A stretch of DNA of 51,465 nt, taken from positions 1 to 51,465 of the IMG/VR virus record IMGVR_UViG_3300037041_001417, one strand, 5' to 3'. A model generated the notes under the pieces. That model saw only the letters and a program-made list of their open reading frames with translations. It made no database searches and was not told where the DNA came from. Position numbers and translations under genes: made by a program. Shown here one piece after another: positions 8,892 through 30,200 of the stretch. Position 1 is the first letter of the stretch, and every line of letters begins with the position of its first letter. Source of the stretch: a virus.

Positions 8892-11800
8892 ATGGCTCAA
8901 GAACAAACAGATCAAACTAATATAGATGAAACTTCATCTAAATTTGATTTTTTAAGAGAGGCAACTCCAAATATTGAGGTTCCAAATTATATGAAAACTC
9001 ACTATCCAACTACAAAAAGTATTGATAATCCAGCATATCCTATGAGAGATCAGGTAACTGGATTACAACCTTTTGGTAATAACTTACCAAAAAACAATAC
9101 TAAAAACATGGATGCTGTTGATGCCATAATTTCACAAACTAGAAAAAGAGCTTTTAGTTATGAAGATCAAAATGTATATGCAAAAACATATTCTTTTGAT
9201 GCTTCACCACAAGGAGCTCACATGGCTAGATATAAAGGTTATGGTGAAGAAACTTATGCTAAAATTGGGTTTAATCCTGAGTTAAATAATGAAGCTATAT
9301 TTAATGAACAAACAACTATGACTGATGATTTTGCTAGAATGTTTACACATTCAGCATGGCCAATGTTAAAGTTGGGATTTATGGCTCCACTTGAAAGTTA
9401 TGGACAAATGTTTACAGGAGATAGTAGTGGAGATTCAATTCAAGCAGAAAGATATAATGAATTAAATGCACTTGGCTATTCAACCAAAGGTGGTCTAGGA
9501 GGTTTTACTAACAACCTTTTACTAAGTGCCTCTTATAGTGCTGGTATTATTGGTGAGGCAATAACTGAAGGAATGGTAATGGGTGCCATAGAAGGAACAA
9601 TAGTTGGACCTGAAGGAACAGCAATAGGTGGAGCATTAGGCGGTGTTGGTGGAGCTCTTAAAGGAATATTTGCTTTACCAAAAGCTTTAGCTCAAATGGG
9701 TAAGTATGGTAGCCAAATGTTACTTAATCTTAAAAATGCTCAAAAATATACTGTTGCTAAAAATTTATTTAAAACTGCATCAAAAACAATTGGTGATTTT
9801 GTCAATCCTATTTCAAATACCAAAGATGCTTTTACAAACCATGTATTTGGTAATAGTGATAATTTATCAAATATGGCTAGAGCTGCTAAAACATTTGGTG
9901 GTTTTTATAATGATGTAAGAATTATAAATGCAGCCTTATCTGAAGGAGGCCTTGAAGCTGGAATGGTAGAAAACAACATGTATAAAAACATGTATGATAA
10001 ATATTATAGTGAAAATGGTGTTGCTCCTACATCTGATGAACAAAGGCAAATGCAAGTACAATCACAAATTGCTGCAGCTCATGCTAAGATGTATAATACT
10101 GCATTAATATTTTATACAAATAAGATTACACTTCCTGCTATATTTAAAGGTAGTATATTTAAAAATGCTACTAGTGTTGCTGCTAGATCTGGTTCTTGGA
10201 AAGTTATATTTGATCCAAAAAAACAAATATATGAAACTGTAAAAGTAAATTTTAAAAATGCATTTAAAGGATTAACACGTCCTGCAAATTATGGTAAAGT
10301 TTCAGTAGCTTATTTTAAAACTAATGTAGCTGAAGGTTTACAAGAAAATATGCAAGATGTAATTGCAGATGCAACAGAAAAATATTATACTGATGCATAT
10401 AATGATAAAGGTAAAGCTACTACAGATTATGCTATGGCAGCTTTATATAATGGTCTTTCAAAACAATGGAGTGCTCAAGGAGGAGAAACATTCTTATCTG
10501 GTTTTGCAATGGGATCAGTGTTAAGACCATTAAATAATGTCCCACATTGGGCTTCAATTGGTTATAATAAGTACTTTAAAAATAGAAGTAATTGGGGTGA
10601 ATATCAAAAAGAACGTGAAACTGGAGCTACTGATATTAGAGATGCAATGAATGCTATGCATCAAAATGGTGTTGACTTTTTAAATCTTAGATCTTTTAAT
10701 CAAGGAGTAGCAGGTTCAATTGCTAGAGTAATTGATAGTGCAGACACATCAACTAAAGAAGAAAAAGATGCAAAAAATACATTAATATCTACTGCTTGGA
10801 TTACTGCATTACAAACAGGACAGATGCAAACTTTTTTAGATAACTTCAATGGATATAAACAAATGTCTCCAAAAGAATTAGAAGATGCATGGGGACTAGA
10901 ACCAGGACAAGGAGAAAAAGCTCATATTAAAATTGATGAAATAACAAAAAAAGGAAAAAATTTAAGTGACAGATATACTTATGCAATGAAAATGCATCCC
11001 CAAAAACTAAAATTATCTGATTATAAAAAAGGTACACCAGAATATGAGAAAGCTGACATACTTATAAAAGCACACCAAGTAGGAATAAGAAATTTAATAT
11101 ATTTACAAGATTCATTTGATAATAATTTAGAAAGAATAAATAAAATTAATAATGATTTTGCTAGTCTTCCTGGATTTGCTAATATGCCATCTACTTATAT
11201 TCAAGCCATGCTTGATCCTGTTAGGTTAAATTCTGAGTTACAAATGCTCAGAACTGAAGTTGAGATGAAGGGACCAGATGTTGAGCAAAAACGTAAAATA
11301 TTAACTGCATTTGAAAACTTAGCAGCAACACAAGATTTTTATACTGAATTTACAAATACTCTTAAAGAAAAGTTTAATAAGCAAGATAAAACTTTTGATG
11401 ATGAAGAAATGCTAAATGAGTTAGTTGAGTTTGGAAAAAGATTTGAAGAACTTGGAGTAAATCCAGAAGAAGATTATAAAACAGCATTTGTAAATGTACT
11501 TAAAGCAATTTCAGGAGATGCTTCTACTTTCCATAAATTTACTTCTGCACCAGAATCAGGAGGAACAATTGATAATTTATTTGCATCAGTTCTTGACAAC
11601 GCTTCTCTTAAGAATGAAAGTAATGGTCTAGTGCGTTATATTAATACTCTTTTAGATCCTGAAGGTTTTACAGAGCACATAAATAGGAATTTTCAATGGA
11701 TGAGCAACCTGTATGCCAACCGGAAGGAATACTATAAGGATATAGTAAATGAACAAATAAAAAATATTGAACATAATTCATTACTTGCTGACTTAGCAGA

Positions 11801-14800
11801 TGAAGGTATATATGTTGACTTAGATGAATTTGCAGACTTTGTAGAAAATGGAACTTTACCTACTGAATTTATTGATAGTGTAAATGAACGTATAATAACT
11901 GAGGATAGTCCTTTATGGGAAGACTACATAGATAAATTTTATGAAGCACTTGAGAATAGAGATAAAAAAGCAGCTGGTGAAAATTCTAATTTAGAAGAAC
12001 AACTTGAAGAAAGAATTAAAGAAAGAAATGATCAAAGAGCAAAAGAACTAGATGATGCAAAATTAATTTATCAAAAAGAACTTAAAATTGAAACTGGTAA
12101 AACTGAACAAGAGTTAATCAAACTTCAGAATACTGCAGATGATAAGGATGAAGAAAATAAAGAAAAACTTCAAGCAAGACTTGATGAAATTACAGATTTA
12201 GCAAAACAGTTAGAGTCTGCTGATGCAATTGAAATTAAAGCTATACAAGAAAGATTAGTTGAATTAGGTATTATATCTGATGATACAGATCTATTGTCAG
12301 AACAAGCAAATGCATTAATTGATGCTGATCAAAAAGGTGTAGTTGCAGAAATAACAAAATTAGTTGAAATACATAAACAAAAAGGTTTACCTATTGAAAC
12401 AGAAAATGGAGTTTTAGTAGATACTGAAATACAATCAAGAGCTATTGCAAAATTAATAGCACTTAAAGAAATTAATAAGCAATTACCATTATTAAAAGAA
12501 AAAATTGATAAAATTGTTCCTGCTACTACAGTTAATAAAATAGAAAATACTAAAGCATATAAAGCTTATCAAAAAACTATTACTGAAATTAATGATAAAT
12601 ATGATAAGTTAATCAGTGAACTTAAAGCAGAATTTGCAAAGAAAGCTACTGGTAGTGCTAAACCAAAACCTTCTACAGATACTTCTTGGGATGATCTTCC
12701 TGTTGCGCTTAAAGATAGATTAACACCTTTATTTGAAGAGTTTAAAACAAAAAATAATATTACTCCAGAAGAAGAAGGTACTGTTAGACAAAACTGGTTA
12801 AAAACTCAAAGTGATGTTATTAATGAATACAATAATCAAGTAACAGAAGGAACAATAAGTATGACAATGCCCAAGCTTATGTTCTTTCCAAATGAATTTG
12901 AGTATGATGGTGTTAAAAAAACTTTAGCAGATCTTAAGTTATATCAATTAAAAGCATTAAAAGATTCTGCACAAAAACAACTTAACACAAATAAAAAATT
13001 AGATCCTGCAGATAGTGAAAAAACACTTCCTCTTACACAAGAGGATAAAAATAATTTAACTTCAGATCTTAAAGCACTTACTGAATATATTAATAGTGTT
13101 AGAAATACATTTAGACCTGATGTAGTATTTGAATCTAAACTTCAAATGTTTAAAGAAAGAATTCTTAATAGACAAGATGAGTTAGAAGAAGAACTGGATG
13201 ATGAAGGTAATGTAGTTGCAAGATATTTAGATGGTAAAATTGCTCAACGTGTAACTAAACATGCTGAAAAGATACAAGCTCAAATTATTAATAAACCTGA
13301 ATGGACATTTAGTAGTGTTAAAGAAGAAACATTACCTGATGGCACAGTTAAAACACCTTGGACTCTTTCATACTTTAGATCAATATTAGAAAATGAAGCT
13401 CTTACATCTGAACAAAAGGTTGAAGCTTTTATGTCTGAGTTTAAAAAGAAAACAACCAAAGGACAATTTGCTGAGCCATCAAAAATTACTGATTTAGAAA
13501 AAGCTCTTAAAACAGATTTTTCAGAAGCTAACTTAATTAGAACTATTAATAAACTTTCATTTAGAGAATCAGCAATTGCTGGTAATACTGTAGATATACT
13601 TATACGTGATTTCTTTACACTAGATGCTGAATCTGGATTTAAAAAAATTACAAAGCCAACTAATATGACTCAAGAAGCTTTTGATTCTTTGTTTGGTGAT
13701 AACGGTATAATTACTGAGTTTAGAGATGGAATGATTGATGGTAAATTCTTTATCTTATCAAATAACTTAAATGTATTTGATTCTAATCTTCTTGAAACTG
13801 GTCTTGCTGGAGCTATGGATATTGTTGCAGTTGATGAAAATGGTGAATATTTTATTGTAGATATTAAAACATCCACTGAATCAAATTGGAAAAACTTTAA
13901 TGCTGAATATTTACATAAAATTAAAAAAGGAGAAACTCTTGATGATATTGCAGAAAAGTACAAAACAACACCAGATAAACTGCGTGAAATAAATGCTGAT
14001 AGTCAAACTTTTGAACCTGGTAATACAGTGTTTGTAAGTACTGATATGAATAGTAAAAAATTATATTTCCGTTTACAACAATCAATATATAGAAACTTAT
14101 TTTATAATATGTCAGGTATCATGCCTCAAAGATTAGGTTTGTTACCAATTGAACTTACATATGATTTAACCGGATTTATTACATCAGCTAAAAAAGCATC
14201 AATTGTAGCTGAAGGTGATTCTACAGTAGACTTAGAATATGCTCCTGAAGTAGAAGAATATGGTGTTACTTTAATTACTCCAGAGTTTGAAGAAACTGTA
14301 GAAGAAGTACCTGTTACACCTACAGACCTTAAAGCTGATATAGAAAGAAAAATAAACAGTTTACCTGATAACTTATTGTTTATAACTCATGTAACTTCAA
14401 CAGGTGCAGCATTAAAGATTTTTAATGATAATTTATTAATGCCTAATGGAGTAAGTTCTACTACAGGAGTTGTCAATAAAGAACAATTAAAACAATTACT
14501 ATTTAATTTAGCTGAAGGTAATTCTCCTCATAGAGGATATTTAGATTTATTTATAGCAGGTATTGATAGAGTTACTCTTGAAAATACTAATGGTAAAAGT
14601 TTACAAGATAAATTAGAAAACTATTTAGATGAAAACTTTATAGATGATGTTGCAAAAACACAACTACCATCTAGTTTAAATATTGGATACTTTACAAATG
14701 GTGTTTTAAATACTAAATATGATGCAGAACTAGCTGCTTTAAAGGGTACTGCTAAAGTTACATATCAAGTAGAAAAACCTGAAGATACTTCTTTAGGAGC

Positions 14801-16568
14801 TAATCTTGGTAAAACAGTATTGTATAAAGGACATGTAGGTAAACTTGTTATAAATGAAGATGGTACATTTGGAGTTGAGTTTCCAAATTCAGAAATAGCA
14901 GACCTATATGCGAATCAGAAAATTACTGAAGAAGGCACAACTGTATTTGATCTTACATCAGAATTACTACCAGCTAAGGATAGAAACCTATTATCAACTA
15001 ATGTAGGTATTTCATTTATAAATGAAGTTACTGAACCTATGCAAACTCAAATTGTTGATGATGTAGTATTTGAAACTAAATTTTTAGATAAGAAAGGGAC
15101 AAGAGTTGAAGTTAATGGTGTTGAATATAAAGTTAATAGAAACAATACTGGTCAAGTAGTATCTTTATCTTATAATAACAATGATGGTAAGATAAAAACA
15201 ATAGATAAAGAAACACAAAAGTTATCACTTAAAATTAATGAACTATTAGCAATAAAAGGTTTAGTTGGTGAGGAGTTAATTAAAAATCAAAAAGAAATAG
15301 TTCAATTTAAACAAAGTATTAATGCTCTTAATGCTAGAAGAAAAATTCTTGTAAATTCAAATCAATCACGTACTATCCGTGGTGGTAATGCAGAAAATAT
15401 TATCTTTGCTTTAAACAGTTTACCACAAACATTTAGTGAAGGATCTGAGAATAAAACTGTAGTAGATGAAGTTAGAGAGTTGAAAAAAATGAATAACCTT
15501 GCTTCTTCTTCAACTGCATCACAAAGAATAGATGAAATTCTTTCAATAAACTATCCTGTAAAACTTGATACATTGTTTACACAAGGTATTTCAGGCATTA
15601 ATGGAAGTGACATTAATACTATTGTTAAATGGGCTAATGATACTATTGAAGCTTTAGAAAACTATGGTTATGGTTTACTTGCTAAAGGAGATATAACTAC
15701 AGATGTAGAAAATCAAATACTTGCTTTAAATCAATTAGTAAATGATATTAAACAAATTAAACTTAAAAAAGATGGACAAATCAGTAAGCAACAACCAGCA
15801 GCAAGAAAAATCTTCCAACCAGAAAAAGTACAGACCGGGACTAATGTACCTCAAGTACAAAAGCCTACCGGAACAGGGACAGAAGGAGTTCCTCCAGTGG
15901 AGAGAAGAGAAAAGCCAACAAAGCTTGAACAAAAGCAAATAAGACTTACTATAAGACAACTTATACAAAATCAAGAAAATGATGACATTGCTAATGAATT
16001 ATTAGGTATTTCTGCAACTAAAGGTAAGTCTAAGCAAACAGACAAATTTATTAAGAAACTTAATAAAGCAAAATCATCTGATGAAATGATGATGATTTGG
16101 GCTGATGCACATGCTAAACATATGCAAGATCCAGTTAGTATTGAAATTGATATTTTTGATAAGGTATATAATCAAAAACTTGCTACCTTTGATACTGAAT
16201 TAAGTATTGATAGTTTAAGTATTGGAGATATTCTTAGACTTAAAACTGATGATTCAAAAGTATATGTTATATACAGTAAAACTGAAGAAGATGTTACTGT
16301 AAGAGAATTTGGTGAAGTTGACAATATGAACCTTAATGAAGGTGCACTACAACTATTTAAAAGATTACCTAAAGATAACCAACCTGAAATACCAGAAATA
16401 ATGGAAGAGATCACATCAGAAACAAAAGATGCAGTTACAGAAACTGGTTTAACACTTGATGATTTAAAGAAATCACCTGACGCATTTGATGATGCAAAAG
16501 CAAATGCTAAAAATAAAAATAAAACTTCTAGATTGAAAGATCTTAAAGACAACTCTAAACTTTGTTAA
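8892..16568 (+). CDS. Giant virion protein, 2558 aa: glycine zipper, coiled coil, PD-(D/E)XK nuclease with inserted LysM
   Basis: Likely an ejected virion protein acting with the RNAP. Domains seen in order: a Gly-rich hydrophobic segment at about 218-270 (GxxxG-type spacing, possible membrane insertion); a long charged coiled coil at about 1033-1125; a RecB-like PD-(D/E)XK nuclease core with GAMD1643 and D1657-I-K1659 and a QxxxY helix (Q1729-Y1733). Between the D-x-K strand and the QxxxY helix sits a 45-residue LysM-like domain (about 1673-1717, KKGETLDDIAEKY, then PDKLREIN and FEPGNTVFV). Residues about 1815-1960 faintly resemble an ADP-ribosyltransferase-like fold. A Pro/Thr/Gly linker lies at about 2306-2345. 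The only cysteine I find is the last residue. The next giant ORF starts one base after this stop. The family placement of the nuclease and LysM is by motif; packaging and ejection are inferred. Confidence 0.85.
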   Translation: MAQEQTDQTNIDETSSKFDFLREATPNIEVPNYMKTHYPTTKSIDNPAYPMRDQVTGLQPFGNNLPKNNTKNMDAVDAIISQTRKRAFSYEDQNVYAKTYSFDASPQGAHMARYKGYGEETYAKIGFNPELNNEAIFNEQTTMTDDFARMFTHSAWPMLKLGFMAPLESYGQMFTGDSSGDSIQAERYNELNALGYSTKGGLGGFTNNLLLSASYSAGIIGEAITEGMVMGAIEGTIVGPEGTAIGGALGGVGGALKGIFALPKALAQMGKYGSQMLLNLKNAQKYTVAKNLFKTASKTIGDFVNPISNTKDAFTNHVFGNSDNLSNMARAAKTFGGFYNDVRIINAALSEGGLEAGMVENNMYKNMYDKYYSENGVAPTSDEQRQMQVQSQIAAAHAKMYNTALIFYTNKITLPAIFKGSIFKNATSVAARSGSWKVIFDPKKQIYETVKVNFKNAFKGLTRPANYGKVSVAYFKTNVAEGLQENMQDVIADATEKYYTDAYNDKGKATTDYAMAALYNGLSKQWSAQGGETFLSGFAMGSVLRPLNNVPHWASIGYNKYFKNRSNWGEYQKERETGATDIRDAMNAMHQNGVDFLNLRSFNQGVAGSIARVIDSADTSTKEEKDAKNTLISTAWITALQTGQMQTFLDNFNGYKQMSPKELEDAWGLEPGQGEKAHIKIDEITKKGKNLSDRYTYAMKMHPQKLKLSDYKKGTPEYEKADILIKAHQVGIRNLIYLQDSFDNNLERINKINNDFASLPGFANMPSTYIQAMLDPVRLNSELQMLRTEVEMKGPDVEQKRKILTAFENLAATQDFYTEFTNTLKEKFNKQDKTFDDEEMLNELVEFGKRFEELGVNPEEDYKTAFVNVLKAISGDASTFHKFTSAPESGGTIDNLFASVLDNASLKNESNGLVRYINTLLDPEGFTEHINRNFQWMSNLYANRKEYYKDIVNEQIKNIEHNSLLADLADEGIYVDLDEFADFVENGTLPTEFIDSVNERIITEDSPLWEDYIDKFYEALENRDKKAAGENSNLEEQLEERIKERNDQRAKELDDAKLIYQKELKIETGKTEQELIKLQNTADDKDEENKEKLQARLDEITDLAKQLESADAIEIKAIQERLVELGIISDDTDLLSEQANALIDADQKGVVAEITKLVEIHKQKGLPIETENGVLVDTEIQSRAIAKLIALKEINKQLPLLKEKIDKIVPATTVNKIENTKAYKAYQKTITEINDKYDKLISELKAEFAKKATGSAKPKPSTDTSWDDLPVALKDRLTPLFEEFKTKNNITPEEEGTVRQNWLKTQSDVINEYNNQVTEGTISMTMPKLMFFPNEFEYDGVKKTLADLKLYQLKALKDSAQKQLNTNKKLDPADSEKTLPLTQEDKNNLTSDLKALTEYINSVRNTFRPDVVFESKLQMFKERILNRQDELEEELDDEGNVVARYLDGKIAQRVTKHAEKIQAQIINKPEWTFSSVKEETLPDGTVKTPWTLSYFRSILENEALTSEQKVEAFMSEFKKKTTKGQFAEPSKITDLEKALKTDFSEANLIRTINKLSFRESAIAGNTVDILIRDFFTLDAESGFKKITKPTNMTQEAFDSLFGDNGIITEFRDGMIDGKFFILSNNLNVFDSNLLETGLAGAMDIVAVDENGEYFIVDIKTSTESNWKNFNAEYLHKIKKGETLDDIAEKYKTTPDKLREINADSQTFEPGNTVFVSTDMNSKKLYFRLQQSIYRNLFYNMSGIMPQRLGLLPIELTYDLTGFITSAKKASIVAEGDSTVDLEYAPEVEEYGVTLITPEFEETVEEVPVTPTDLKADIERKINSLPDNLLFITHVTSTGAALKIFNDNLLMPNGVSSTTGVVNKEQLKQLLFNLAEGNSPHRGYLDLFIAGIDRVTLENTNGKSLQDKLENYLDENFIDDVAKTQLPSSLNIGYFTNGVLNTKYDAELAALKGTAKVTYQVEKPEDTSLGANLGKTVLYKGHVGKLVINEDGTFGVEFPNSEIADLYANQKITEEGTTVFDLTSELLPAKDRNLLSTNVGISFINEVTEPMQTQIVDDVVFETKFLDKKGTRVEVNGVEYKVNRNNTGQVVSLSYNNNDGKIKTIDKETQKLSLKINELLAIKGLVGEELIKNQKEIVQFKQSINALNARRKILVNSNQSRTIRGGNAENIIFALNSLPQTFSEGSENKTVVDEVRELKKMNNLASSSTASQRIDEILSINYPVKLDTLFTQGISGINGSDINTIVKWANDTIEALENYGYGLLAKGDITTDVENQILALNQLVNDIKQIKLKKDGQISKQQPAARKIFQPEKVQTGTNVPQVQKPTGTGTEGVPPVERREKPTKLEQKQIRLTIRQLIQNQENDDIANELLGISATKGKSKQTDKFIKKLNKAKSSDEMMMIWADAHAKHMQDPVSIEIDIFDKVYNQKLATFDTELSIDSLSIGDILRLKTDDSKVYVIYSKTEEDVTVREFGEVDNMNLNEGALQLFKRLPKDNQPEIPEIMEEITSETKDAVTETGLTLDDLKKSPDAFDDAKANAKNKNKTSRLKDLKDNSKLC

Positions 16569-16569
16569 A

Positions 16570-19500
16570 ATGGCGTGTGCATTAAACAGTGATCAAATAA
16601 AAGATCTGTATACAATTCTCTATGGTGAGATTAATGATAGAATACAAGATAAAGAATTACCTAAATTTGATATAAAGTCATTTATTAAATCCTTTTATAA
16701 TGAACTTATGGATCCTAGTGATCCTATGGAAGAAGAAAAAGCATTGTTATATCTTCAAGCAATTCCAGATATATTTATGTTAATAACTGGTGATTCTGAA
16801 ATTCAAGATTATATACTTGATAATGACATCCAATTAAATGATATACTTAAATTATCTAAAAAGTTTGAGTCACCTGAGCTTACTGCAGTTAGAGAATTTA
16901 TTACTGTAAAAAAAAAGACTAATAAAGAAATTAAAATAAACATTAGTCAAATTAATAAGTCTATAAAAAAAATAGTTCTTAAAGATCCAGAACCAGGGCA
17001 AAGTGCAACACCTAAAATTTATAAAAATAAAGCAAGAGTAATTACAGCTGCAAGTACTACGCCACAACAAGCTATAGCAGCAAATCCAGAAACTTTAACT
17101 GAGGAACAAAGAAATAAAATTGACCAAGAAAAGGTAATGTTTTATACTGTAATACAGAACCTTGCATATTTGGTAACTAATAAAACTGCAGATCAACAAG
17201 ACATAGAATATAATAATGTTCCAGTACGTCTTAAACCTGTTGTAGTAGGTGCAGTTGATCAATCATACTTTACTGAAAAAGACAAAGTATTTATGAAAGC
17301 AAAGCCTGAAGGTATAGTTACATTTGTATCTGACACTGAAGGCAATATTTTATTTTTTGATGAGGATGGCCAACTTACTGATAAAAAATCTGGAAGACCT
17401 GTTTATCAATATATAAGAAAAGTTACTCTTAAGAATAACAAATTAGTACTGAGTAATCAAAGTGATTTTTACTATAACATTGTATCTCCAGAAGAACAAG
17501 TAGAACAAATGCGTAAGAATGCTGCAAGTAATAAAATAGAATTTACTGACGCATATGCAAAAACACAAATTCAACAAATAAAAGCACAACAACAAAAAGA
17601 TTTAAATAATCTATTTAACTTAAGAAATTACCTTACTGAGAATACAAATGCAAATGTGTTATTACCTATCACAGGAGGATCTACAGGATACGTTGAAACT
17701 GATTATAAAGTATTAGCAGAAACAGATATTAGCCAAGATGAAATTACTGAGTATTTCATAGAAGATTCAGGTGATGATTCAGGAAACTCATATTTTATCT
17801 TAACAAGACCTAAAGGTGGGATGGAGATAAACTCAAAAGTATTTTTACAACGTGGTGACATTACATTAGAATTAGCAAAAAAAATAGCACAAGTACTTAC
17901 TACAGATGCCAAAGTTAAAGGAGAGCAATTGAATCCATATGAAAAAATGGAATATGCAAAAGTTTTTATTAATAACCGTGTATCTAAAAACCGTATAAAT
18001 ATTGATGTTCAAGAAAAAGAAGGTCTTCCTCAACTTGTAATAACAATATTTCCTACTAAAAATGATGCTGCAAGAAATAAAAATGGAGTAGAAATTACTA
18101 CTGCACAAGAAATTGAAGATCATTTAATGAATGCAGTTGAATGGACTGCAAAGAATATTAAACGTACTGAAACATATCCTGCTAATATAAGTTATAATAA
18201 AAAATACAAAGGTGGTAAGACCTTTGTTGATTATAATATTGTTGGTGATAAGATTACTACAAGTGAAGTTTCTTACTTTGACTATATTAAACCATTTATC
18301 AAAATTGAAATTAGTAAAGATTCATATGCATACTTTGCAGGCTTTAATTCTTATTTAATGTTTGCTATTCCGGATGTTGTTAAATCAGCTGATACAGAAT
18401 ATGAAGTTGGTTTTGCAGTTGATAAAGCTCAGACTAAAGCAAAAGGTAAGAAAAAAGAAACTAAACCTGTTGTCATCCAAGAAATTAAACTTAATAATGA
18501 TAAAATAAAAGTAACAGTTGCAAGGAAGTCTGGCTATGGTGAGGCTACCAAACAAGCTATTAAGTCAGGGGACGGTTCACTAGCTTTTGCAATTGACTTT
18601 GATAATAGCGCAGAATCATTAGTGAAAAGAGAATCTGTAAACTATTTTGGAGTAAAACTAGATAGTAAGTCTAAAGCACCTGCTAAATTAGTTCCTACAC
18701 CTCAAGGTATAAATAATATTGTTTCAAATATTAATAAGTTTACGCCAGGTAAATTATTTGTATCTGGTAATGATATATCAATTTTAGAAAAAGCAGGTTA
18801 TACACAAGATGATGTTGATCAATATATGGCTAATATATTAAAAGCTGTATCTACATCTCCAGATCTTGTTACTCCAATTACTCAAATTATTACAACGGGT
18901 CAATCAGGAGTTGCTGAAGCTTTTGTTAAAGCTGCCGCTAAAGTTAATATACTTACAACTATTATAGCACCTAGGGGCTACTCATTTAGAACTTTATCAA
19001 AAAATACTGAAACCGGATACAAGGATGAAAATGATAAGATAGGGTTTATTAACCGTTTTGGAAATACTCCAGAAGCATTACCAACTGAAGAAGAAGTTAT
19101 TGTAGATGAAGTTATACCAGCTCCAGTAGTTAGAAAAGCTAGAAAAACAAAAGTAATAGATAAAACTGTAGAAGAACTTAAAGCAGGTGATGCTGTAAAA
19201 ATTCAAAGTGCTGTTGACTCTATTTTAGGTGCAGTGCCTACATCTTTACTACCTCCTAAAAATTTAGAAAGATCAAAAGGTATAGGTAGTTTTCTTGATA
19301 GAGTGTTTACTACTAAGGCAGATAGAAAAAAAGCTGATGACTGGTATGAAAAATCAGATCTTAGTGATGTTATTTCACTTGAAAGAATTACTGCTATAGT
19401 AAATTCAGATGCATTTGCTACTTGGTCTAAATCAGGTATTACTTTGTATGAAGGAGATGGTGGTACATCTGTAGATTTATACCATGAAGCTTGGCATGGA

Positions 19501-22500
19501 TTCTCTCAGTTATTTTTAACTTATGATGAAAAAGTAGAGTTATATACTCACATGAGAGATAACTATCCTAAATGGGCTAATGCTGAGTTTATTGATATAG
19601 AAGAAAGTTTAGCTGAAGACTATAGATCTTATGCAAAATTTAACAAAAAATTTCCAGGTATCATTGGAAAGATCTTTGCAAAAATTTCAAAAATTTTAAG
19701 AAAACTATTTACTAAGTTAACTAGAAGAGACTTTACAAGACCAATGGATATTCCTATGGTTAAAGCAATGTATGATAATTTATTAAACAATGATTTATCT
19801 AAATACTCTCCAGATGTAAACAATGCAATGCCAGAGTTTACAGTACTCAACCGGGCAAAAGTAATTACTCTTCCTAAGTCTATTGAAAATAACTTTAAAG
19901 AGTTTTCTTTATCAGAGAGTAATAAGATTAATGAGAGTATTGACTCAATTATGGCAATGACTTTTAGAAACTATGCTAAAAAATTCAATGCTCCAGCTGC
20001 AGTAGATTACATACTTACAAATCCTACTAACCGTAAGGCAATGTATGAGGATGTAAAAGTTAAACTTGAAATTAAAAGACAAGATTTTGTTGACCAACTT
20101 TCAAGAGTAACCATAGAAAATCTTGATAGAGAAGATTCAAATGACTTCTTAGAAGCTATGCTAATGGAGAAAGTAGATCTCTTCAATAGAGTGCTAGAAG
20201 GTTTTGGAGATATAGACATGTCCTTAAGTGGAGAACAAAAGTCTGGTGTTGTAGCATACCATATTAAAAATTCAAGATTTAACATTCTTAAAAAAGCATT
20301 ACAAGAAACTGAAGAAGAAGATGCTTCAAATATTTCAATGTCTCAATCGGGTAGAGAACAAAATGACAATGTTAAATCTGCTAAAGAATATGCAAGTGAA
20401 GAAACTATGATGTTACTTGCATCTGTTAATAAGCAAACAAAAGAATATGATAAAGATGGAAATCCAATTTATGTTCTTAATAGTCTTGACATACCAGAAT
20501 TAGAAGATCCAGATCTTTTGTGGAATAGATTAGCAAGATTACTTGCAGGTTCTTTAGATCCAAATGAAATGTATAGTATTATGATTAAATCTCAAGATAA
20601 TTATCCTGAGTTTGAACAAATATTAACTTTACTTCCAAACCCTGTTGAAAATACAGATACATATAAATCTAATAGTGAGTTTGATGCAGAAACAAAATTT
20701 TGGCAAGATCTTAAAAAACCAATTGTTAAGTTTAAACAATTAACAATTAGTAAGACAATTGTTGAAAGAGGTGGTACAACTATAGAAGGAACAGTTAAAA
20801 AAGAAAAGTCAACATATGAGTCTAGATTATCAAGATCAGATTTTAGTACTCATGGGATTATATCTGACTGGACTGCAAATTTTATAACGGCAACTAAAAA
20901 AACTAATCCTTTTATTTATGAAAAGGATAATGATAATTATTTAGATACAGATAAGATAATGGAAAACCTATCTGTAAATGGTATATTGCCAAATAAAAAT
21001 TCAGTACAGTTTTTAAATGCTCTTGGTATTAATTTAGATATGACTAGTTATCAAATTAAGTCTTTTGTAAATAATCCTAAAGCATTATTTAATACTGGAT
21101 TTGGTGTTAATAATATATTCAGTATTGTACAGAAAGTACATTTAGCTAGTAAATCTAAAATACCAGCTCAAGTAATAGCAGCAGAAAAGTTTAAGAAAAA
21201 CCCAATGCACTATCTTTTAAATGGTTTACCAGCAGCATTAAGGACTGATCCAAAAAAAGATGAAGCTGTTAAAACTAAAATTAGACTTTTAGCTGAATTA
21301 CAAAATGAATATTCTGATGGTTATTCTAATTTTAGTACAATAACTCCAGAAGGAAACCGTGTATGGGAACATTTTTTAGACAGTACAATTACTAGAGTTA
21401 TAACTTCAATTAATAAAGCTAAGAACTGGCAAGAACTTACTGACCCTGAAACAGATGTAAATGGTAGATTTAAACATATGTACTGGTTAGCTAAAGAGAA
21501 TAACCCATATTCTAATTTTTCTGTTTTATTAAATTCTATGTTTTATTTAGATCCACTAAATGCTCCAATAGATAAAGATGGATTATCAATGTATGGAAAT
21601 AAAAAAGCGGGAGCTGAATTAAATTTAAATATTGTTGCTGGTACTCAATTAGTAACTAAAAATAGTAATGAAAAAGAAGGTAAGTCTACTAGTTCTTCTG
21701 ACCTTACAACAAAGTTTCTTCAAGAACTTCACACTATGCTTAATAATGGTGTAGAAGAATTTATGAGACATGCTTCTAAGAATACTGCAATGAGTCTATC
21801 TACTAATAAAGTAGAAACATATGCTGGTAAAGATAACAATGGATTATATATTGATACAAAGTTGTTTAGACCATCAGCACTTAGTATGACGGGGAACTTT
21901 GGAGAGAGCCAAGCATTTAATATTATCTCTGGATATATGGCAGGAGAGCTTGATAGAATTTATAGATTTAAAGCTAACTCAAAAAACCCATACCTAAAAG
22001 AATCAGAAAAGTTTAAGAACTGGGCAGGTTATAATAGAGAAGTAGTAAAAAAAGATGGTAAAGTTGTTATGGCTGGAGAAGTTTTTACAGCATTTGATGA
22101 TGTATTAACTGAAACAACTAAAAATAAACTTTACAATATTGTAGATGAGATGGTAGCAAAAGGTGAATCATTTAATCTTATAGAATATTTTGAAAATAAT
22201 GAGGCTTTAAGAAGTGAAATAAAAGAACAAGTAATTGAGTATTTCAATAAACAAACAAAAGTAAATGTCCGTAGACTTAAAAAAGCTAAATATTTGGACC
22301 CATCCTTATATGAGAATCTTACTATAGATGATCTTACAGTAGATCAAGTTGACACTATGTTAATTAAATCTTATACGTATAACTCTTGGATACATAAATT
22401 TGAAACACTGATAATTGCATATGGGGATTTAGCTCAATACAATCATTCTAAAGAAGAATTCCACAAACGTAATGCTGGACTAGCATCTGGTGGAAGAGGC

Positions 22501-25500
22501 TTCCGTGCTGACATGAGAGCTCAAATGTTTATTAATACTAATGTAACTGACCCAGACAAAGCTCCAGGTTTATTCCAAAGATATTATGCAAACAGAGAAG
22601 GTTATTCTGTAAGAGCATATGATGGTACATTGAAAACAGGAATCATTCAAGAAAAAATAGTTAAATCGGTATATTACGATGAATATCATGATAAGCTAGT
22701 AAAAACTTATACTGAAAGACTTAAGAAGAATGATAACATTGCAAAAGAAGACATAGAAAGTAAGGCAAATGAAATGGCTGATACTGCTTTAGATGAGTAT
22801 ACAAAAATGAAAGAAGCTGATGGTCAAGGTCATATTACTTTTGAATCATATAGAATGCTTAAAAAATTAGAGAGCACTTGGACAGATGAACAAGAAGCTT
22901 TGTATAGAAAAATTGCAAGAGGTCAACAAGTTAATTTTGAAGATGTAGTAGAATTTTTTCCTCCATATAAATTACAATACTTTGGTAACATGCAGGTTTC
23001 TGGATTACCGCTTACATCATTTCATAAGTTTTCATTAGCTCCACTTATTCCTTCAGTACATACTATGGATAGTAATCTTGGTAAGTTACATGATATGATG
23101 ATGAAACAACAAATGGATTATGTATTATTTGAGTCTGGTTCAAAAGTTGGTCATGTTACAAGTAATGGTTCAGGTGATGTACTTTATAATGGTGATAATC
23201 AAACTATTAACACTGATGCAAAGTTCACTGTAAATACAGTTTTTGCTGAATTTCTTAAGAATCAAACTGAAATAAATAAAGTATACAAAAAGAAATCAAT
23301 TTTCTCTACTCAGTTACGTAAGTTAATACTTGATGGTTTATATGAGCAAGGTAAAATTCCTTCAACTGATGAAAATAAAATTACTGATCCTATTGTAAAA
23401 AGATATATTAATCATGTTAGTGAATATACTAATCTCCTTAAAATGGAACTTCTTAATGAAATTGGTTTTGAAGAAAAAAATGGTGAGTATTTTCCAGTAG
23501 ATAAAGATAGTACTGCAAAGGTATTAGCAATGATCCGTGCTAATCTTGAAAAAGATGATGTATTAGGTGATCACTTGATTGATATGATTGACATTAATGA
23601 AGATGGAAGTTTAGCATATGATTTATCATTACATCCAGAATCAGCTAAAATTGAAAAGATTTTACTTTCAATAATCAATAAAAGAATAATAAAACAAAAA
23701 GTAAAAGGTGAAGCTTTAGTACAAGTATCTGCAGCAATGTATGAAGGTATGTTTGAAACACCTAAAATGCATAAAGGAACAGATGCTGATATTAAAAAAT
23801 GGGTAGGTAGTAATTTCTTACCAACATATCATAAAAAAGCAGATGGTACTACTGCAGCTATGAAAACAATGGTTGCTCTACAAGGTAGTTTTGTTCATTT
23901 ACTTAAGTTAGAGTATAAAGGTAAAGAGATAGGTACAATAGACAGGCTTAATGAAGCTATCAAAGATGATGAATGGTTGGATACAAACAATAACCGTAAA
24001 TTAATTACAATGGTTGGTGTCCGTATCCCGGTACAAGGATTAAATTCTATGGAGTTTATGGAGGTTTATCACTTCTTACCAGCTGAAGCAGGAAACATTA
24101 TTATACCACCATCAGAAATAGTTGCAAAATCAGGGGGTGACTTTGATATTGATAAGATGAGTGTATTTATGCCAAATATTACTAAAGAGGGTGAATATGT
24201 AAATAGAATTTATGCAGATAATGAGGCAGTTAAACGTGAAGTTGAATCTGTAAAAGAATCAGGTAAATCAGCTGCAGGAGTTTTTACAGCTCAAAAAGCA
24301 GGTATAGAGAATGAACTTATTGAAGACATAAGAGCTATACTTGAACTACCTACTAATTATGCATCACTTATAACACCAAATGGTACTTTCTTATTAAAAG
24401 ATATTGCAGATGATTTATCTCAGTATGTTATGGATTATAATCCACTTACTAACATGTCTTCTGATACTCCTAATAAATCAGATAAAAACAAATCTATCAT
24501 TAGTCCAACTAGGGTATTAGAGTCTGAATATAACTTATACAAACATGAGTCAAATGTTATTGGTAAAAGAACACTTGGTCTAGGTGCTATTGAAAATACT
24601 TTTAATGTTCTTATGAATTCATTAGGTGCATCAATGCCAAATACGTTTTCTCATAGAGATGAATTAACTCCACGTTTTGCACACTTTTGGTTGAAACATA
24701 ATACCATGATGAAGAAAACTGGTCAGTTAGATAAGAATGGTAAAGAGATAATGGAAAAAGTTATTTCATTATCAAATAGATTTGATGCTGATAACACAAC
24801 TAAAATTGCAGATATCTTTTCCCAAATGATTAATGGATGGGTGGATGTTGAAAAAGATGCATGGATATTCTTTATTCAGGGTAATTATGAAGTAGCTCCA
24901 ACATTACTATATCTTATTAAAGCTGGAGTACCTGTGAAAGATGCGATATACTTTGTATCACAACCTTTAGTAAGAGAATATGTAGATGAGCAACGTTTAA
25001 TTAAATCTACATATGCAGAGCTTTTAAGAAAAAAACAATCTGATTTACCAGATAAATATGCAGCGGCATCTAATGTTATTTCTAAACATTGGGAATTACC
25101 TAAAACATTAAATAAAGGTAGGGCTAGATATGATGAAGCAGTAAGATTATCTAAAAAACATTTTAAAGGTGAGGAAGAATTTTCAACTGAAGAGATGTAT
25201 GATTTAATTAAAGATTATAAAAAAGATCCTAAAGCTGCAGATTCAGATTTGTCAAAGTTAATGTTTATGCATTACTTACAAATTGAAGCACAGATAGAAG
25301 GAATAACTCAGTTAAAGATGAACTCTAATCCGGATACATCAACTGATAATGCTTTATTTAAATCAGAAGTAACTCTTGCAAACTTAGAAAGTTTAGAAAC
25401 AGAATCTAAACTTGATCAAGATTTATTTAAAGATATGTTGTCTGATTCTATTATCAGTTCATTCTTTAATCAAAAAATGGCACTTGGTGTAAGTAAACCT

Positions 25501-27291
25501 TTATTTCCATTAAGATATCATCCAGCTATATCTAGTTTCTTAATATATCTAAGTAAAACAAGACAATTAAGAAAAGATTCAGCTACTACATTTGGAGAAG
25601 GTAATGAAGATGTATTAGTTGCAACTTTTAGAAATGACTTTATAAGTTACATCTTACAAAATTCATTAAGAAAATATAAACTTTCTGATGGATATAAAGG
25701 CTATGAGATGACAGATGTGGTGCCATTAAAAATGGTTGACCAATTAAAGTTTGGAGCACACGTAGGACTTGATAACGGTAAAAAAGTATTATATGTTGAT
25801 AAGGTTAGTCTTAGAAATGAGTTTGAATCTAATGCATGGGTAGAAGGTTCAGACAATGCTAATAGTTATGAAAAGCGTAAGTTATTTCCTCTTAAAGCAG
25901 GACACTTTATGACTAATAAGTTTACCAATTTTGATGAATATACAAGATTTGTAGCTGAGAGAGAATTTTTAAGAGACTTATATCCTATTTCTGAATATAA
26001 GAATACAGAAGACTTTGAAAATGAATTAGTCATGACTAAAGTTCAGAAACCTAATATGGATGAGACTGAACAAAACAGATTTACTTATGAAAAATTCTTA
26101 GCACACAGGGCATTAGAGAATACCTTTAATCCTTATCACATGTTTAAGGACCCTAATTATTCTTTTGCAAGTGAATACTCTAAAATTCTTAAAAAATATA
26201 ATAATCTTCCAAAAGAATATACTGTATTACAACGTATAAAAGTTGATGCAAATGATTCAAGAACTATGTTTAACTTATACCTTTCTGATAAAGATGTAAA
26301 TAATTCTAAAGCAAACTTGTATCATGCAGATTTAATCAAACTTGCAGATCCAAATATTGAAAAAGTAGATAATAAAGAAGACAATAAAATGATTAGTGAC
26401 TTCTTTACAAGAATGTCTATGGTAGCATTTTTACAAACAGGATTAAACAAAAGTAAATTTAGTTTTACTAATATAGTTGACTTTGATGAATTCTTATCAG
26501 TTATGCAGCAAGAAGGACAAAAGTTTGTTAATTTATTAAATGACAGTGAGTCAGCTGAAGAAATAATTACAAATTATTATTATGATATTTTCTTAAATGA
26601 AAATAAATTTATGAAAGGTGGCAAACCAAATAAAGATAGAAATAGATTTAAAAACCTTATTTCTAAACTTAATTTTGATAATTTGAAAAAAGTTAAAGCA
26701 CCTACTGTTGCTAGTAAAGAAACAACACTACAATACTTAAGTCAAGAAGGCGTAGCAATATTTAAAAATAATACGGGCAAACCAGATCATTACCAAAATT
26801 TAGTAAATGTAAATTCAGATGTAGTGTTTGTAGCAAATGAAGTTGTAGCAGCAATTGCTGATCCAAGCAAATTCTTCTTAGGAGAAAGTAGTTTAGTTAG
26901 AGCAGCTGAAGGTATGGTAATTAAAATGCCAACATCACAACTTAAAATAAATGATAACTTCCAAGGATTCACTGATGAGACTTTTCCAAAGATTATTGAG
27001 AGATTTGAAAAAAGAATTGAACTTATAAAAAATATTTTATATACCTCTACAGGTGAGTGGACAGGGGAAGTAGTTGCATTTTCTAATAATGGATATGGAG
27101 ATCCAAACAAGATGCCTCAAAAATTATTCGTATATTTATCTAGAAGATTGTATGAAGAATTTGGTTATTTAAATCCTGGCTCTGAGCATTATGATGAGAT
27201 TTCTCAAATGGTAATAGCACAACAAGGAATTGATGATCAAATGATCATAGATAAATTTGATAATGAAACAAGTGATCCTTTCAAATGTTAA
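16570..27291 (+). CDS. Virion RNA polymerase giant protein, 3573 aa (DFDID catalytic motif)
   Basis: Contains the metal-binding catalytic loop of the crAss-like phage virion RNA polymerase: SGGDFDIDKM with D2524, D2526 and D2528, preceded by a RxPxQGxNS-type strand region (about 2475-2523), as in the beta'-like double-psi beta-barrel of phi14:2 gp66 and YonO-type enzymes. That family transcribes early phage genes after ejection into the host. The protein is much larger than phi14:2 gp66 (about 2180 aa), so extra domains are fused. One is a Rossmann-like segment at about 727-830 (TTGQSGVAEAF, APRGYSFRT) resembling SLOG/molybdenum-carrier folds. Another is an HExxH motif (YHEAWH, H972/E973/H976, with E1011-E1012 downstream) typical of gluzincin metallopeptidases. 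A C-terminal domain at about 3394-3555 is unidentified. A charged linker lies at about 830-865. Cysteines occur only at residue 3 and at the very end. The start follows the previous stop by one base, suggesting coupled translation. Confidence 0.9.
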   Translation: MACALNSDQIKDLYTILYGEINDRIQDKELPKFDIKSFIKSFYNELMDPSDPMEEEKALLYLQAIPDIFMLITGDSEIQDYILDNDIQLNDILKLSKKFESPELTAVREFITVKKKTNKEIKINISQINKSIKKIVLKDPEPGQSATPKIYKNKARVITAASTTPQQAIAANPETLTEEQRNKIDQEKVMFYTVIQNLAYLVTNKTADQQDIEYNNVPVRLKPVVVGAVDQSYFTEKDKVFMKAKPEGIVTFVSDTEGNILFFDEDGQLTDKKSGRPVYQYIRKVTLKNNKLVLSNQSDFYYNIVSPEEQVEQMRKNAASNKIEFTDAYAKTQIQQIKAQQQKDLNNLFNLRNYLTENTNANVLLPITGGSTGYVETDYKVLAETDISQDEITEYFIEDSGDDSGNSYFILTRPKGGMEINSKVFLQRGDITLELAKKIAQVLTTDAKVKGEQLNPYEKMEYAKVFINNRVSKNRINIDVQEKEGLPQLVITIFPTKNDAARNKNGVEITTAQEIEDHLMNAVEWTAKNIKRTETYPANISYNKKYKGGKTFVDYNIVGDKITTSEVSYFDYIKPFIKIEISKDSYAYFAGFNSYLMFAIPDVVKSADTEYEVGFAVDKAQTKAKGKKKETKPVVIQEIKLNNDKIKVTVARKSGYGEATKQAIKSGDGSLAFAIDFDNSAESLVKRESVNYFGVKLDSKSKAPAKLVPTPQGINNIVSNINKFTPGKLFVSGNDISILEKAGYTQDDVDQYMANILKAVSTSPDLVTPITQIITTGQSGVAEAFVKAAAKVNILTTIIAPRGYSFRTLSKNTETGYKDENDKIGFINRFGNTPEALPTEEEVIVDEVIPAPVVRKARKTKVIDKTVEELKAGDAVKIQSAVDSILGAVPTSLLPPKNLERSKGIGSFLDRVFTTKADRKKADDWYEKSDLSDVISLERITAIVNSDAFATWSKSGITLYEGDGGTSVDLYHEAWHGFSQLFLTYDEKVELYTHMRDNYPKWANAEFIDIEESLAEDYRSYAKFNKKFPGIIGKIFAKISKILRKLFTKLTRRDFTRPMDIPMVKAMYDNLLNNDLSKYSPDVNNAMPEFTVLNRAKVITLPKSIENNFKEFSLSESNKINESIDSIMAMTFRNYAKKFNAPAAVDYILTNPTNRKAMYEDVKVKLEIKRQDFVDQLSRVTIENLDREDSNDFLEAMLMEKVDLFNRVLEGFGDIDMSLSGEQKSGVVAYHIKNSRFNILKKALQETEEEDASNISMSQSGREQNDNVKSAKEYASEETMMLLASVNKQTKEYDKDGNPIYVLNSLDIPELEDPDLLWNRLARLLAGSLDPNEMYSIMIKSQDNYPEFEQILTLLPNPVENTDTYKSNSEFDAETKFWQDLKKPIVKFKQLTISKTIVERGGTTIEGTVKKEKSTYESRLSRSDFSTHGIISDWTANFITATKKTNPFIYEKDNDNYLDTDKIMENLSVNGILPNKNSVQFLNALGINLDMTSYQIKSFVNNPKALFNTGFGVNNIFSIVQKVHLASKSKIPAQVIAAEKFKKNPMHYLLNGLPAALRTDPKKDEAVKTKIRLLAELQNEYSDGYSNFSTITPEGNRVWEHFLDSTITRVITSINKAKNWQELTDPETDVNGRFKHMYWLAKENNPYSNFSVLLNSMFYLDPLNAPIDKDGLSMYGNKKAGAELNLNIVAGTQLVTKNSNEKEGKSTSSSDLTTKFLQELHTMLNNGVEEFMRHASKNTAMSLSTNKVETYAGKDNNGLYIDTKLFRPSALSMTGNFGESQAFNIISGYMAGELDRIYRFKANSKNPYLKESEKFKNWAGYNREVVKKDGKVVMAGEVFTAFDDVLTETTKNKLYNIVDEMVAKGESFNLIEYFENNEALRSEIKEQVIEYFNKQTKVNVRRLKKAKYLDPSLYENLTIDDLTVDQVDTMLIKSYTYNSWIHKFETLIIAYGDLAQYNHSKEEFHKRNAGLASGGRGFRADMRAQMFINTNVTDPDKAPGLFQRYYANREGYSVRAYDGTLKTGIIQEKIVKSVYYDEYHDKLVKTYTERLKKNDNIAKEDIESKANEMADTALDEYTKMKEADGQGHITFESYRMLKKLESTWTDEQEALYRKIARGQQVNFEDVVEFFPPYKLQYFGNMQVSGLPLTSFHKFSLAPLIPSVHTMDSNLGKLHDMMMKQQMDYVLFESGSKVGHVTSNGSGDVLYNGDNQTINTDAKFTVNTVFAEFLKNQTEINKVYKKKSIFSTQLRKLILDGLYEQGKIPSTDENKITDPIVKRYINHVSEYTNLLKMELLNEIGFEEKNGEYFPVDKDSTAKVLAMIRANLEKDDVLGDHLIDMIDINEDGSLAYDLSLHPESAKIEKILLSIINKRIIKQKVKGEALVQVSAAMYEGMFETPKMHKGTDADIKKWVGSNFLPTYHKKADGTTAAMKTMVALQGSFVHLLKLEYKGKEIGTIDRLNEAIKDDEWLDTNNNRKLITMVGVRIPVQGLNSMEFMEVYHFLPAEAGNIIIPPSEIVAKSGGDFDIDKMSVFMPNITKEGEYVNRIYADNEAVKREVESVKESGKSAAGVFTAQKAGIENELIEDIRAILELPTNYASLITPNGTFLLKDIADDLSQYVMDYNPLTNMSSDTPNKSDKNKSIISPTRVLESEYNLYKHESNVIGKRTLGLGAIENTFNVLMNSLGASMPNTFSHRDELTPRFAHFWLKHNTMMKKTGQLDKNGKEIMEKVISLSNRFDADNTTKIADIFSQMINGWVDVEKDAWIFFIQGNYEVAPTLLYLIKAGVPVKDAIYFVSQPLVREYVDEQRLIKSTYAELLRKKQSDLPDKYAAASNVISKHWELPKTLNKGRARYDEAVRLSKKHFKGEEEFSTEEMYDLIKDYKKDPKAADSDLSKLMFMHYLQIEAQIEGITQLKMNSNPDTSTDNALFKSEVTLANLESLETESKLDQDLFKDMLSDSIISSFFNQKMALGVSKPLFPLRYHPAISSFLIYLSKTRQLRKDSATTFGEGNEDVLVATFRNDFISYILQNSLRKYKLSDGYKGYEMTDVVPLKMVDQLKFGAHVGLDNGKKVLYVDKVSLRNEFESNAWVEGSDNANSYEKRKLFPLKAGHFMTNKFTNFDEYTRFVAEREFLRDLYPISEYKNTEDFENELVMTKVQKPNMDETEQNRFTYEKFLAHRALENTFNPYHMFKDPNYSFASEYSKILKKYNNLPKEYTVLQRIKVDANDSRTMFNLYLSDKDVNNSKANLYHADLIKLADPNIEKVDNKEDNKMISDFFTRMSMVAFLQTGLNKSKFSFTNIVDFDEFLSVMQQEGQKFVNLLNDSESAEEIITNYYYDIFLNENKFMKGGKPNKDRNRFKNLISKLNFDNLKKVKAPTVASKETTLQYLSQEGVAIFKNNTGKPDHYQNLVNVNSDVVFVANEVVAAIADPSKFFLGESSLVRAAEGMVIKMPTSQLKINDNFQGFTDETFPKIIERFEKRIELIKNILYTSTGEWTGEVVAFSNNGYGDPNKMPQKLFVYLSRRLYEEFGYLNPGSEHYDEISQMVIAQQGIDDQMIIDKFDNETSDPFKC

Positions 27292-27297
27292 AATAAA

Positions 27298-30200
27298 ATG
27301 GTTTGTAAAACAAAAATAAATTCTCTACAGTATTTGAGAAATAAAGATCTCATTAATGATGTAAATAGAATTCTTAATGAAACTGCCTTTGATGCAATCA
27401 ATGAGGAGTTAACAAGATATGCTGAAGTTAAATATAACTTACCTACTGAAGGTAAGATGTTATATTCTAAATACAAAACTGAGCAAACAGATGACACCCG
27501 ATCCCGGTATGTAAAGGATGCTAAGTATGCAATGTCATTTGCAGAGCCAAATGATGTTCTCTTCAATACTTTAGATGAATTAATTAAGCTTGATGAGATC
27601 CGTAATACAACTGACCTTATTGATTCTTTAGGGATAGACTATAAAAGTGATTCAGAAGTTAATAAAGAATATGATAAGAGAGTTAAGAATGCTATGATTG
27701 ACTTCATGAAAGGTTTAAATATAACTGTAAATGAAGATGTTGAAGAGATAGTTTCTAAACAAAAGAGAACATATAAAAATGCTGAGGGAAAAACTATCAC
27801 TAAAGAGGACCCCATGGCAGCTTTTGATTTATTACAAAAGTATCTTGCTATAAAAGAAAATATATCAAACAAACAACTTGCTAAACAAACAGCATATGTT
27901 ATTCATACTTTTTTAGGTAAAAAATCTAAATTAGGCATTGAACTTTGGAAAAGTGTTGATAATTGGAGTAAATATGATTATTACTATAATAAATATAGCC
28001 AACCATATGAACAAACAAATGAAGATGAAGTCAAATTAGTAAACAATGATTATGGTGATATAGACATGGCTAGTGACTATATCAAAAAAGTATATGAGTT
28101 TGACCCTGAAAGATTTAATCCATATGCACATAAACAAGTTATTATTGAATTTCTTTCTGAAATGATTATAGCTGGTGCTGATAACATTCAAAGTGGTGCA
28201 AAAATTTCTAATCCTGATATCAATAAAGCTTATTTTGAAAGCATTGGGTATAAAGATAAATATGCTCAGAACTGGTTAGTAAAAATGTGGAATAGAGTTT
28301 GGAATTGGATTCAAGAACATATACTTAATAATAAAGCAATTACTATTTATAGTGAACAAAAACTAAATGAAGTTGTGTTAGACATTGTAGATGATGTTTA
28401 TAAAAAAGACTACACAAAGTTTATCAGGGACTATGTACAAAATGCTGAAAATGGTAAATTCTTTACTAAACAAGGAGTAGAGTTTGAAGAAAAGGATTAT
28501 CAAAAAAGTCTTGATAATGATTGGTTTGCAAAAGATATTGTTACAAAACTTTTTACATCTGCTTTTGATTATATTTTAAGTGGCTCTCTTGTATTAAGAA
28601 AATATGGAAGAGTAATCCGTGCTATGAGTGAAGACTTACATGACATTGATGGTGTAATTACTCTTGAACAATTTCTAAGTGAAGAAAATCATGAGAAGTT
28701 TTTAAAATGGATTGAAGAAGTTGGTCTTTCTTTATCAAAAGATAGGTCAACTAAAAATGCAGCAAAGTTTAAACAACAAATAGTACCACTACTTGAAGAG
28801 CAATCTTGGTATAAGGATGTAAAAAAGTTATTTCCTAGTTGGACATTAGAAAATACATTTATTGGTACTGACCATAAGAAAGGAGAATCTATTACTATTT
28901 CAGGTTATATTGAACATCCAACTGAAATGGAAGAAGCAGAAGAAGAAATATTAAGTTATGGAGGAAGACTTGAAACCAAAATGGTTAAAAGACCTAAAAG
29001 ATATATACTTGACTTTTTCTTAAGAACACAAGAAGGAAACTATCCAGAAATATTTGATCATTACTATAAAGACTGGAAACAAATATTTGAAGCTAAAATT
29101 AATATGGGTAGAAGTAAAGATTTAAATGATCTTATTTATTTTGAACCATATAGAATTGATAAATATAAATATACAAACAAAGGCTTCCGTTACTTTACAT
29201 TTGCTGATAGTAAAAAAGGTGCAACACCACTAGTTTTATCTAGTATAGAAGAATCAGGAATGTCTAAAGAACTTGATCCCTTTACTCAAGTAGAAACAAT
29301 TGAGCTTAGTGTTCCTCAAATGGAAAAAGCAAGAGCTAAAGAAATTTTAGATATCATTACAGAAAGGTTAAGTGCAAACTTAGGTGTAAGTTATGCAAAT
29401 GTTACAGCAGCAGAAGCTACTGAGATCTTAAAGAATAGACCTGTTCCTTATAATGGGGAACTTGGATTTTTTCATGGAGGCACAGTCTATACTGTTGGGG
29501 ATAATGTATCATTGTCTTCAGCATTGCATGAGTTTGGACATCCATTATTAGGTGCAATCAGAAGAGAAAACAAAGTTTTATTTAATAACTTATATGAAGC
29601 ATTAACTCTAACAGATGAAGGTCAAGCACTTGAAAACTTTGTACAAAAAAGATATCCTGAATTACTTAAAGGAGGTGAATTTTTTAAAGAAGAAGTATTA
29701 AATCATGCTTTACAATTAAAAAGTCTTAATAAAATAAATGAACAGATTGCATCTAAAGGATTTGATGCATTCATTTCAAAATTATTAAAAGCAATTAAAG
29801 ATTTACTTAAAAATATTTTTGGTACTAAAGCTGTCATAGCTAAACTTAATGTAGACACATCATTAGAAACTCTTGCAGATATGTTGCTTACAAAAAGTTT
29901 TGAGTATGATACATTCATGGCTACAGAAGAAGATGTAGTAATGTACTTAAGATCAATTAATGAAACAGCAGAAAATCTTGCAGAAAATGTATCAGTAAAA
30001 GCTTTACAGGATGGTATAAACCGGGTATATGCTGTTGCGGATGGTGTAATTAAAAGAGCAAAGAACTTTAAAAAAAATACACCTGAGTATACTATGTTAC
30101 AAGAGTCTATTTTTATGGATATAAATAAAAATAAACTTTTCCCTGCAGTTAAGAGCTCACTGGCTCCTTTTCAAAACTTTTCTCAAAGTCAATCACAAAC

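Follow-up and report, generated by a model that had tools for sequence, protein, structure and literature searches.

The window, a 51,465-nucleotide stretch covering positions 1 to 51,465 of the uncultivated virus record IMGVR_UViG_3300037041_001417 (IMG/VR), contains an open reading frame (ORF) for a giant protein of 2558 amino acids (aa) which runs without a stop along its whole length. Within this protein, a RecB-like nuclease domain of the PD-(D/E)XK type is predicted to be interrupted by a LysM module. The features of this region are as follows (residue numbers refer to the 2558-aa protein unless another is named).

8892..16568, + strand: ORF of the 2558-aa giant protein, whose nuclease domain is homologous to crAss001 gp47, a virion cargo protein
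13527..14231, + strand: predicted RecB-like PD-(D/E)XK nuclease domain, residues about 1546-1780, interrupted by the LysM (AlphaFold2, Foldseek, invariant residues)
13809..13820, + strand: GAMD motif, residues 1640-1643, with the predicted catalytic D1643 (G1640 and D1643 invariant)
13860..13868, + strand: D1657-I-K1659, the predicted catalytic DxK on a long strand (invariant residues, AlphaFold2)
13905..14039, + strand: LysM module, residues 1672-1716, inserted in the loop that joins the DxK strand to the QxxxY helix (Pfam PF01476, AlphaFold2, Foldseek to 1e0g)
14076..14090, + strand: Q1729-xxx-Y1733 (QQSIY), within the helix 1723-1741 (invariant residues, AlphaFold2)

The nuclease domain and the module nested in it

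The host domain is strongly predicted to be a RecB-like PD-(D/E)XK nuclease with a full catalytic set, and would presumably cleave DNA. The original prediction had read the GAMD, DxK and QxxxY motifs from the sequence, and all three lie where it had placed them. We aligned 66 distinct domain sequences, the window included, collected by scans of viral contigs and through records reached via a 2516-aa protein encoded nearby (see below). Residues D1643, D1657, K1659, Q1729 and Y1733 are aligned and kept in all 66, as is the RecB-like motif order D, DxK, QxxxY. Of 36 aligned members, 25 match the Pfam profile PDDEXK_1 (PF12705) at E-values of 0.01 or lower, the best being 2.8e-7; the nuclease-domain part of the window itself scores 15.2 bits, under the curated cut-off of 22. 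The invariance of the five catalytic residues, together with these 25 matches, argues that the assignment did not arise by chance. A sequence profile search of the PDB with the domain found no nuclease.

For structure prediction, AlphaFold2 was run on residues 1420-1810 aligned with 35 relatives (model residue i corresponds to residue 1419+i). Both folds form in the model of the window protein, which has a mean predicted local distance difference test (pLDDT) score of 90.1 and a predicted template modelling (pTM) score of 0.85. Foldseek searches of the PDB with this model rank RecB-family nucleases first, namely EXO5 (1.5e-4), Cas4 SSO0001, AdnA, AddA and MGME1; the TM scores, normalised to the whole query, are low (0.13-0.25) because the query includes the flanks and the LysM. 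When it is compared with viral models, the top matches are crAss-like structural proteins and PD-(D/E)XK proteins. The domain thus resembles RecB/Cas4/EXO5-type nucleases in fold and in motif order, but differs from Cas4, EXO5 and AddB, which have an iron-sulphur cluster: residues 1420-1810 contain no cysteine, so it is not an iron-sulphur nuclease. It differs further in the loop enlarged by the LysM.

That loop had been proposed to hold a LysM-like unit, a call which Pfam and the model both bear out. Pfam LysM (PF01476) matches residues 1675-1701 with an E-value of 5.1e-6 when the whole protein is searched, and the 57-aa module alone reaches 3.6e-8 and 33.6 bits, above the curated cut-off of 20.9. 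The module retains the classical consensus KKGETLxxIAxKY...N...PG without a stop, and its best resemblance in the PDB is to cell-wall enzymes (LytE, 5.8e-11). In the model, the DxK strand (1653-1661; model residues 234-242) and a short helix (1663-1667) are followed by a strand-helix-helix-strand LysM unit, comprising a strand at 1672-1676, a helix at 1683-1689, a short helix at about 1694-1696 and a strand at 1712-1716. The chain then returns to the nuclease with the QxxxY helix (1723-1741) and two strands (1747-1757 and 1763-1768). Foldseek separately finds the LysM of MltD (1e0g) over 44 columns (TMt 0.68), with a weak E-value of 0.85. The LysM is therefore almost certainly nested inside one predicted nuclease fold rather than placed between two separate domains, the arrangement that would have spoken against the original prediction. 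The spacing from DxK to QxxxY, which the original prediction gave as about 70 residues instead of the usual 15-30, was measured as 72 from D1657 to Q1729, with 69 residues between K1659 and Q1729; removal of the LysM restores the usual spacing, the K-to-Q stretch of most relatives being 18-37 residues long (median 26).

LysM insertion within another domain has a precedent in the type III CVNH lectins (MoCVNH-LysM; PMC4926178), one of which, 5c8o, is among the PDB matches of the 1420-1810 model. The host domain there is a fungal lectin; here it is a phage nuclease, and a cell-wall-binding module has come to lie within the catalytic domain of a protein that the phage probably injects. Our search of the open-access literature found no paper joining crassvirus, LysM and nuclease, and no LysM in the crAss-like phage papers searched; the term is absent from the main text of Yutin et al. 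2021 (PMC7886860).

Relatives and history of the insertion loop

The patterns used in the scans sit on both sides of the K-to-Q linker, so that carrying a LysM would not have made a relative any harder to find. Homologues having the nuclease and lacking the LysM, which the original prediction had suggested looking for, turned out to be the rule: none of the 65 aligned relatives carries a LysM in the linker, and neither do seven more that were measured separately (linkers of 20-27 residues), leaving the window as the only carrier. Across the 66 sequences the linker varies from 18 to 119 residues (median 26, standard deviation 18.5), whereas two neighbouring segments are nearly constant, at 13-14 and 15-19 residues (standard deviations 0.2 and 0.7), and the stretch ahead of D1643 is moderately variable (64-96 residues). 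Apart from the window, all linkers fall between 18 and 56 residues except in two relatives with unrelated inserts (116-119). In six close relatives (L008-L011, L013 and L014; 42-48% identical) the same loop holds about 30 inserted residues that look helical, L130 (L130:1501-2376) and L131 have about 90-100 extra residues there, and Steigviridae have a short extra stretch. The loop insert of L130 gives a weak match to Imm50 (E 0.014).

Because linkers are usually of 18-56 residues, with unrelated inserts in two relatives and a LysM in the window only, the DxK-QxxxY loop is, on the evidence of the alignment, an insertion hotspot permissive for unrelated inserts. A nuclease loop that repeatedly takes up unrelated sequence would represent a natural permissive site in RecB-like nucleases. 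The LysM itself is very probably a derived, lineage-specific insert: a FastTree tree from which the linker was excluded places the window beside two sequences whose linkers are short (support 0.80), so that gain along the branch leading to the window is the best reading. The GC content of the LysM equals that of the gene (0.297 and 0.298, respectively) and thus gives no hint of recent foreign insertion. No direct repeats of at least 8 bases flank the insert.

Among about 50 LysMs of the family, the closest to the nuclease LysM is that of the 2516-aa protein of the same genome (27.8 bits, phmmer); the two are identical at 17 of 45 positions, and their DNA similarity is out of register. With BLOSUM62, the latter LysM scores 84 raw against the nuclease LysM, equivalent to about 37 bits, no better than the best LysMs of phage and plasmid records (up to 39 bits), so that an intragenomic copy is indistinguishable from another source. 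The further suggestion that the LysM is a shared insertion cassette is upheld for the site and not for its contents, as the loop is used in several lineages and the inserts found there look mutually unrelated; a LysM does recur within the phage group, in a different giant protein and at a site unrelated to this one.

Probable virion cargo and the second LysM

The proteins encoded downstream of the 2558-aa protein include two further giants (residue numbers below refer to each):

16570..27291, + strand: 3573-aa protein with DFDID, an instance of the motif DxDxD found in the virion RNA polymerase of crAss-like phages
33847..33981, + strand: second LysM, residues 2184-2228 of the 2516-aa protein (ORF 27298-34848), conserved in relatives

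Among named phages, only residues 1546-1788 of the 2558-aa protein find matches, in crAss-like phages (including crAss001 gp47, cr85_1 and cr128_1; the usual annotation is putative RNA-polymerase subunit) and in bajarodcaudo virus 1. Uncultivated phages in IMG/VR have homologues along most of its length (L009, L012, L075 and L018), L009 being 40% identical over residues 50-1812. A scan of genome contigs with the nuclease domain gave no match. The gp47 protein of crAss001, the gene for which lies in the RNA polymerase (RNAP) block, has a nuclease domain homologous to that of the 2558-aa protein, catalytic residues included, with a PHROG exonuclease match at the equivalent place. It differs in its K-to-Q linker, which is 37 residues long and lacks a LysM, and the two domains share about 27% identity. 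Yutin et al. 2021 (PMC7886860) reported a PD-(D/E)XK domain in a large protein that crAss-like phages encode in the transcription block, and the window domain is of this kind.

The genomic setting is that of crAss-like phages. DFDID, at residue 2524 of the 3573-aa protein (positions 24139-24153), corresponds to the motif DxDxD described for the RNA polymerase of crAss-like phages (PMC7886860); giant RNAP-block proteins with DxDxD are a mark of Crassvirales. A relative of the crAss001 major capsid protein is encoded by 21 of 23 related contigs (E about 1e-6); the window itself is a fragment. Mass spectrometry of crAss001 virions detected gp47 and the other RNAP-block proteins; several giant proteins share the virion as cargo, gp47 is regarded as part of what is ejected, and crassvirus cargo is probably extruded in a partly unfolded state (PMC10172136). 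Judged by this homology, the 2558-aa protein is probably gp47-type cargo of a crAss-like phage, carried in the virion and injected; the virion location, as the original prediction had it, is thus supported through gp47, which has been seen in crAss001 virions only. The 3573-aa protein also has a zincin-like motif, HEAWH, at residue 972.

In contrast to the nested LysM, the second one is conserved, and it is possibly of more general interest. It is present in 30 of 30 aligned relatives of the 2516-aa protein. Of 33 uncultivated contigs that have the nuclease, 30 carry a LysM, as do all 29 contigs with the 2516-aa protein. One contig is common to the two sets; in all, 58 related crAss-like contigs have a LysM, nearly always once per contig and in a large ORF. 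In most of the 33, this ORF was equated with the 2516-aa protein by length and by the sequence around the LysM rather than by full alignment. The conserved LysM is absent from crAss001-type phages, and the 2516-aa protein itself finds no match among named phages. An AlphaFold2 model of its C-terminal region is poor overall (pLDDT 61), but the LysM is confident (block pLDDT 77-89) and is placed between a small strand-rich element and a helix; a hydrophobic segment spans residues 2348-2366. The protein has a zincin-like HEFGH motif at residue 744. A scan of genome contigs with it yielded one contig in a Rickettsiaceae metagenome-assembled genome, probably mis-binned and not used to assign a host. 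An additional LysM lies in a large protein near the stretch start of L147:6-2843 (- strand), the contig of L016 (G008); what follows it looks lysozyme-like by eye, while Pfam supports the LysM only.

Possible roles of the nested LysM

The explanation we favour, taken as a whole, stands at even odds. The gp47-type cargo protein would be packaged in the virion and then injected, and its RecB-like nuclease domain would act on DNA after entry. In the window's lineage, a permissive loop beside the active site would have accepted a complete LysM, which would most likely bind the N-acetylglucosamine chains of peptidoglycan as the protein emerges into the periplasm. At the cell wall, some of the injected complex would thereby be tethered or guided, and the giant protein encoded nearby would do likewise through its conserved LysM. 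Entry of this kind has an analogy in N4-type phages, which eject a giant RNA polymerase with proteins forming a periplasmic tunnel (PMC12633501). The nested and neighbouring modules together suggest that crAss-like cargo touches peptidoglycan on entry, a poorly known step for crassviruses. Whether the LysM serves as such a peptidoglycan tether is, in our estimation, a matter of equal chances.

Several observations weigh against this explanation. LysM-fold domains also mediate protein-protein contacts in phage tails. Cargo crossing the periplasm unfolded may leave the LysM unable to bind. The nested LysM is carried by a single contig, crAss001 and three other named phages have no LysM match at all, and successive ten-residue blocks of the nested module have pLDDT values of 82, 86, 74, 60 and 75, that is, moderate confidence.

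Two alternatives are serious rivals to the tether. The LysM could dock another phage protein, for example within the packaged cargo complex, with no sugar binding. LysM-like domains are known to take part in assembling phage tails and baseplates. The giant proteins are co-packed as cargo (PMC10172136), one neighbour of the 2558-aa protein also having a LysM; docking is nonetheless rather unlikely given the classical consensus and the resemblance to cell-wall enzymes. We give a similarly low chance to the LysM being a neutral passenger of a tolerant loop, with no selected role. The inserts at the same site in the six relatives, in L130 and L131 and in Steigviridae are compatible with this, as is the gene-like base composition with no trace of a recent foreign insert. 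However, that the consensus is intact even though the composition has become gene-like suggests constraint.

The original prediction had proposed a latch, in which the LysM would keep the nuclease blocked up to the moment of binding, or of leaving, peptidoglycan. Insertion between the DxK strand and the QxxxY helix does mean that the LysM must sit near the edge of the active site, yet all relatives have the nuclease without such a latch, and the cargo is probably extruded partly unfolded (PMC10172136), which together make a latch unnecessary and the proposal improbable. A sugar-gated nuclease, in which a LysM on the active-site rim couples peptidoglycan contact to activity so that wall passage switches the injected enzyme, is just as doubtful. 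Finally, a chimeric assembly or false domain call, for which the restriction of the nested LysM to one contig might speak, is scarcely credible, as the LysM is in frame in an open ORF of matching GC content, homologous sequence continues on both sides of it, it is no copy of the other LysM of the contig, and Pfam, PDB sequences and AlphaFold2 are concordant.

Two further features of the window may be mentioned. Directly after the nuclease, residues 1813-1943 of the 2558-aa protein (about 130 aa; 14328-14720) are missing in the close relative L009; within them, the stretch FITHVTSTGAALKIFNDNLL has a faint ADP-ribosyltransferase look by eye, with no match in Pfam and phage searches. A separate, second PD-(D/E)XK exonuclease gene (39423-40475, - strand; PF12684 and PF12705) is located in the replication block.
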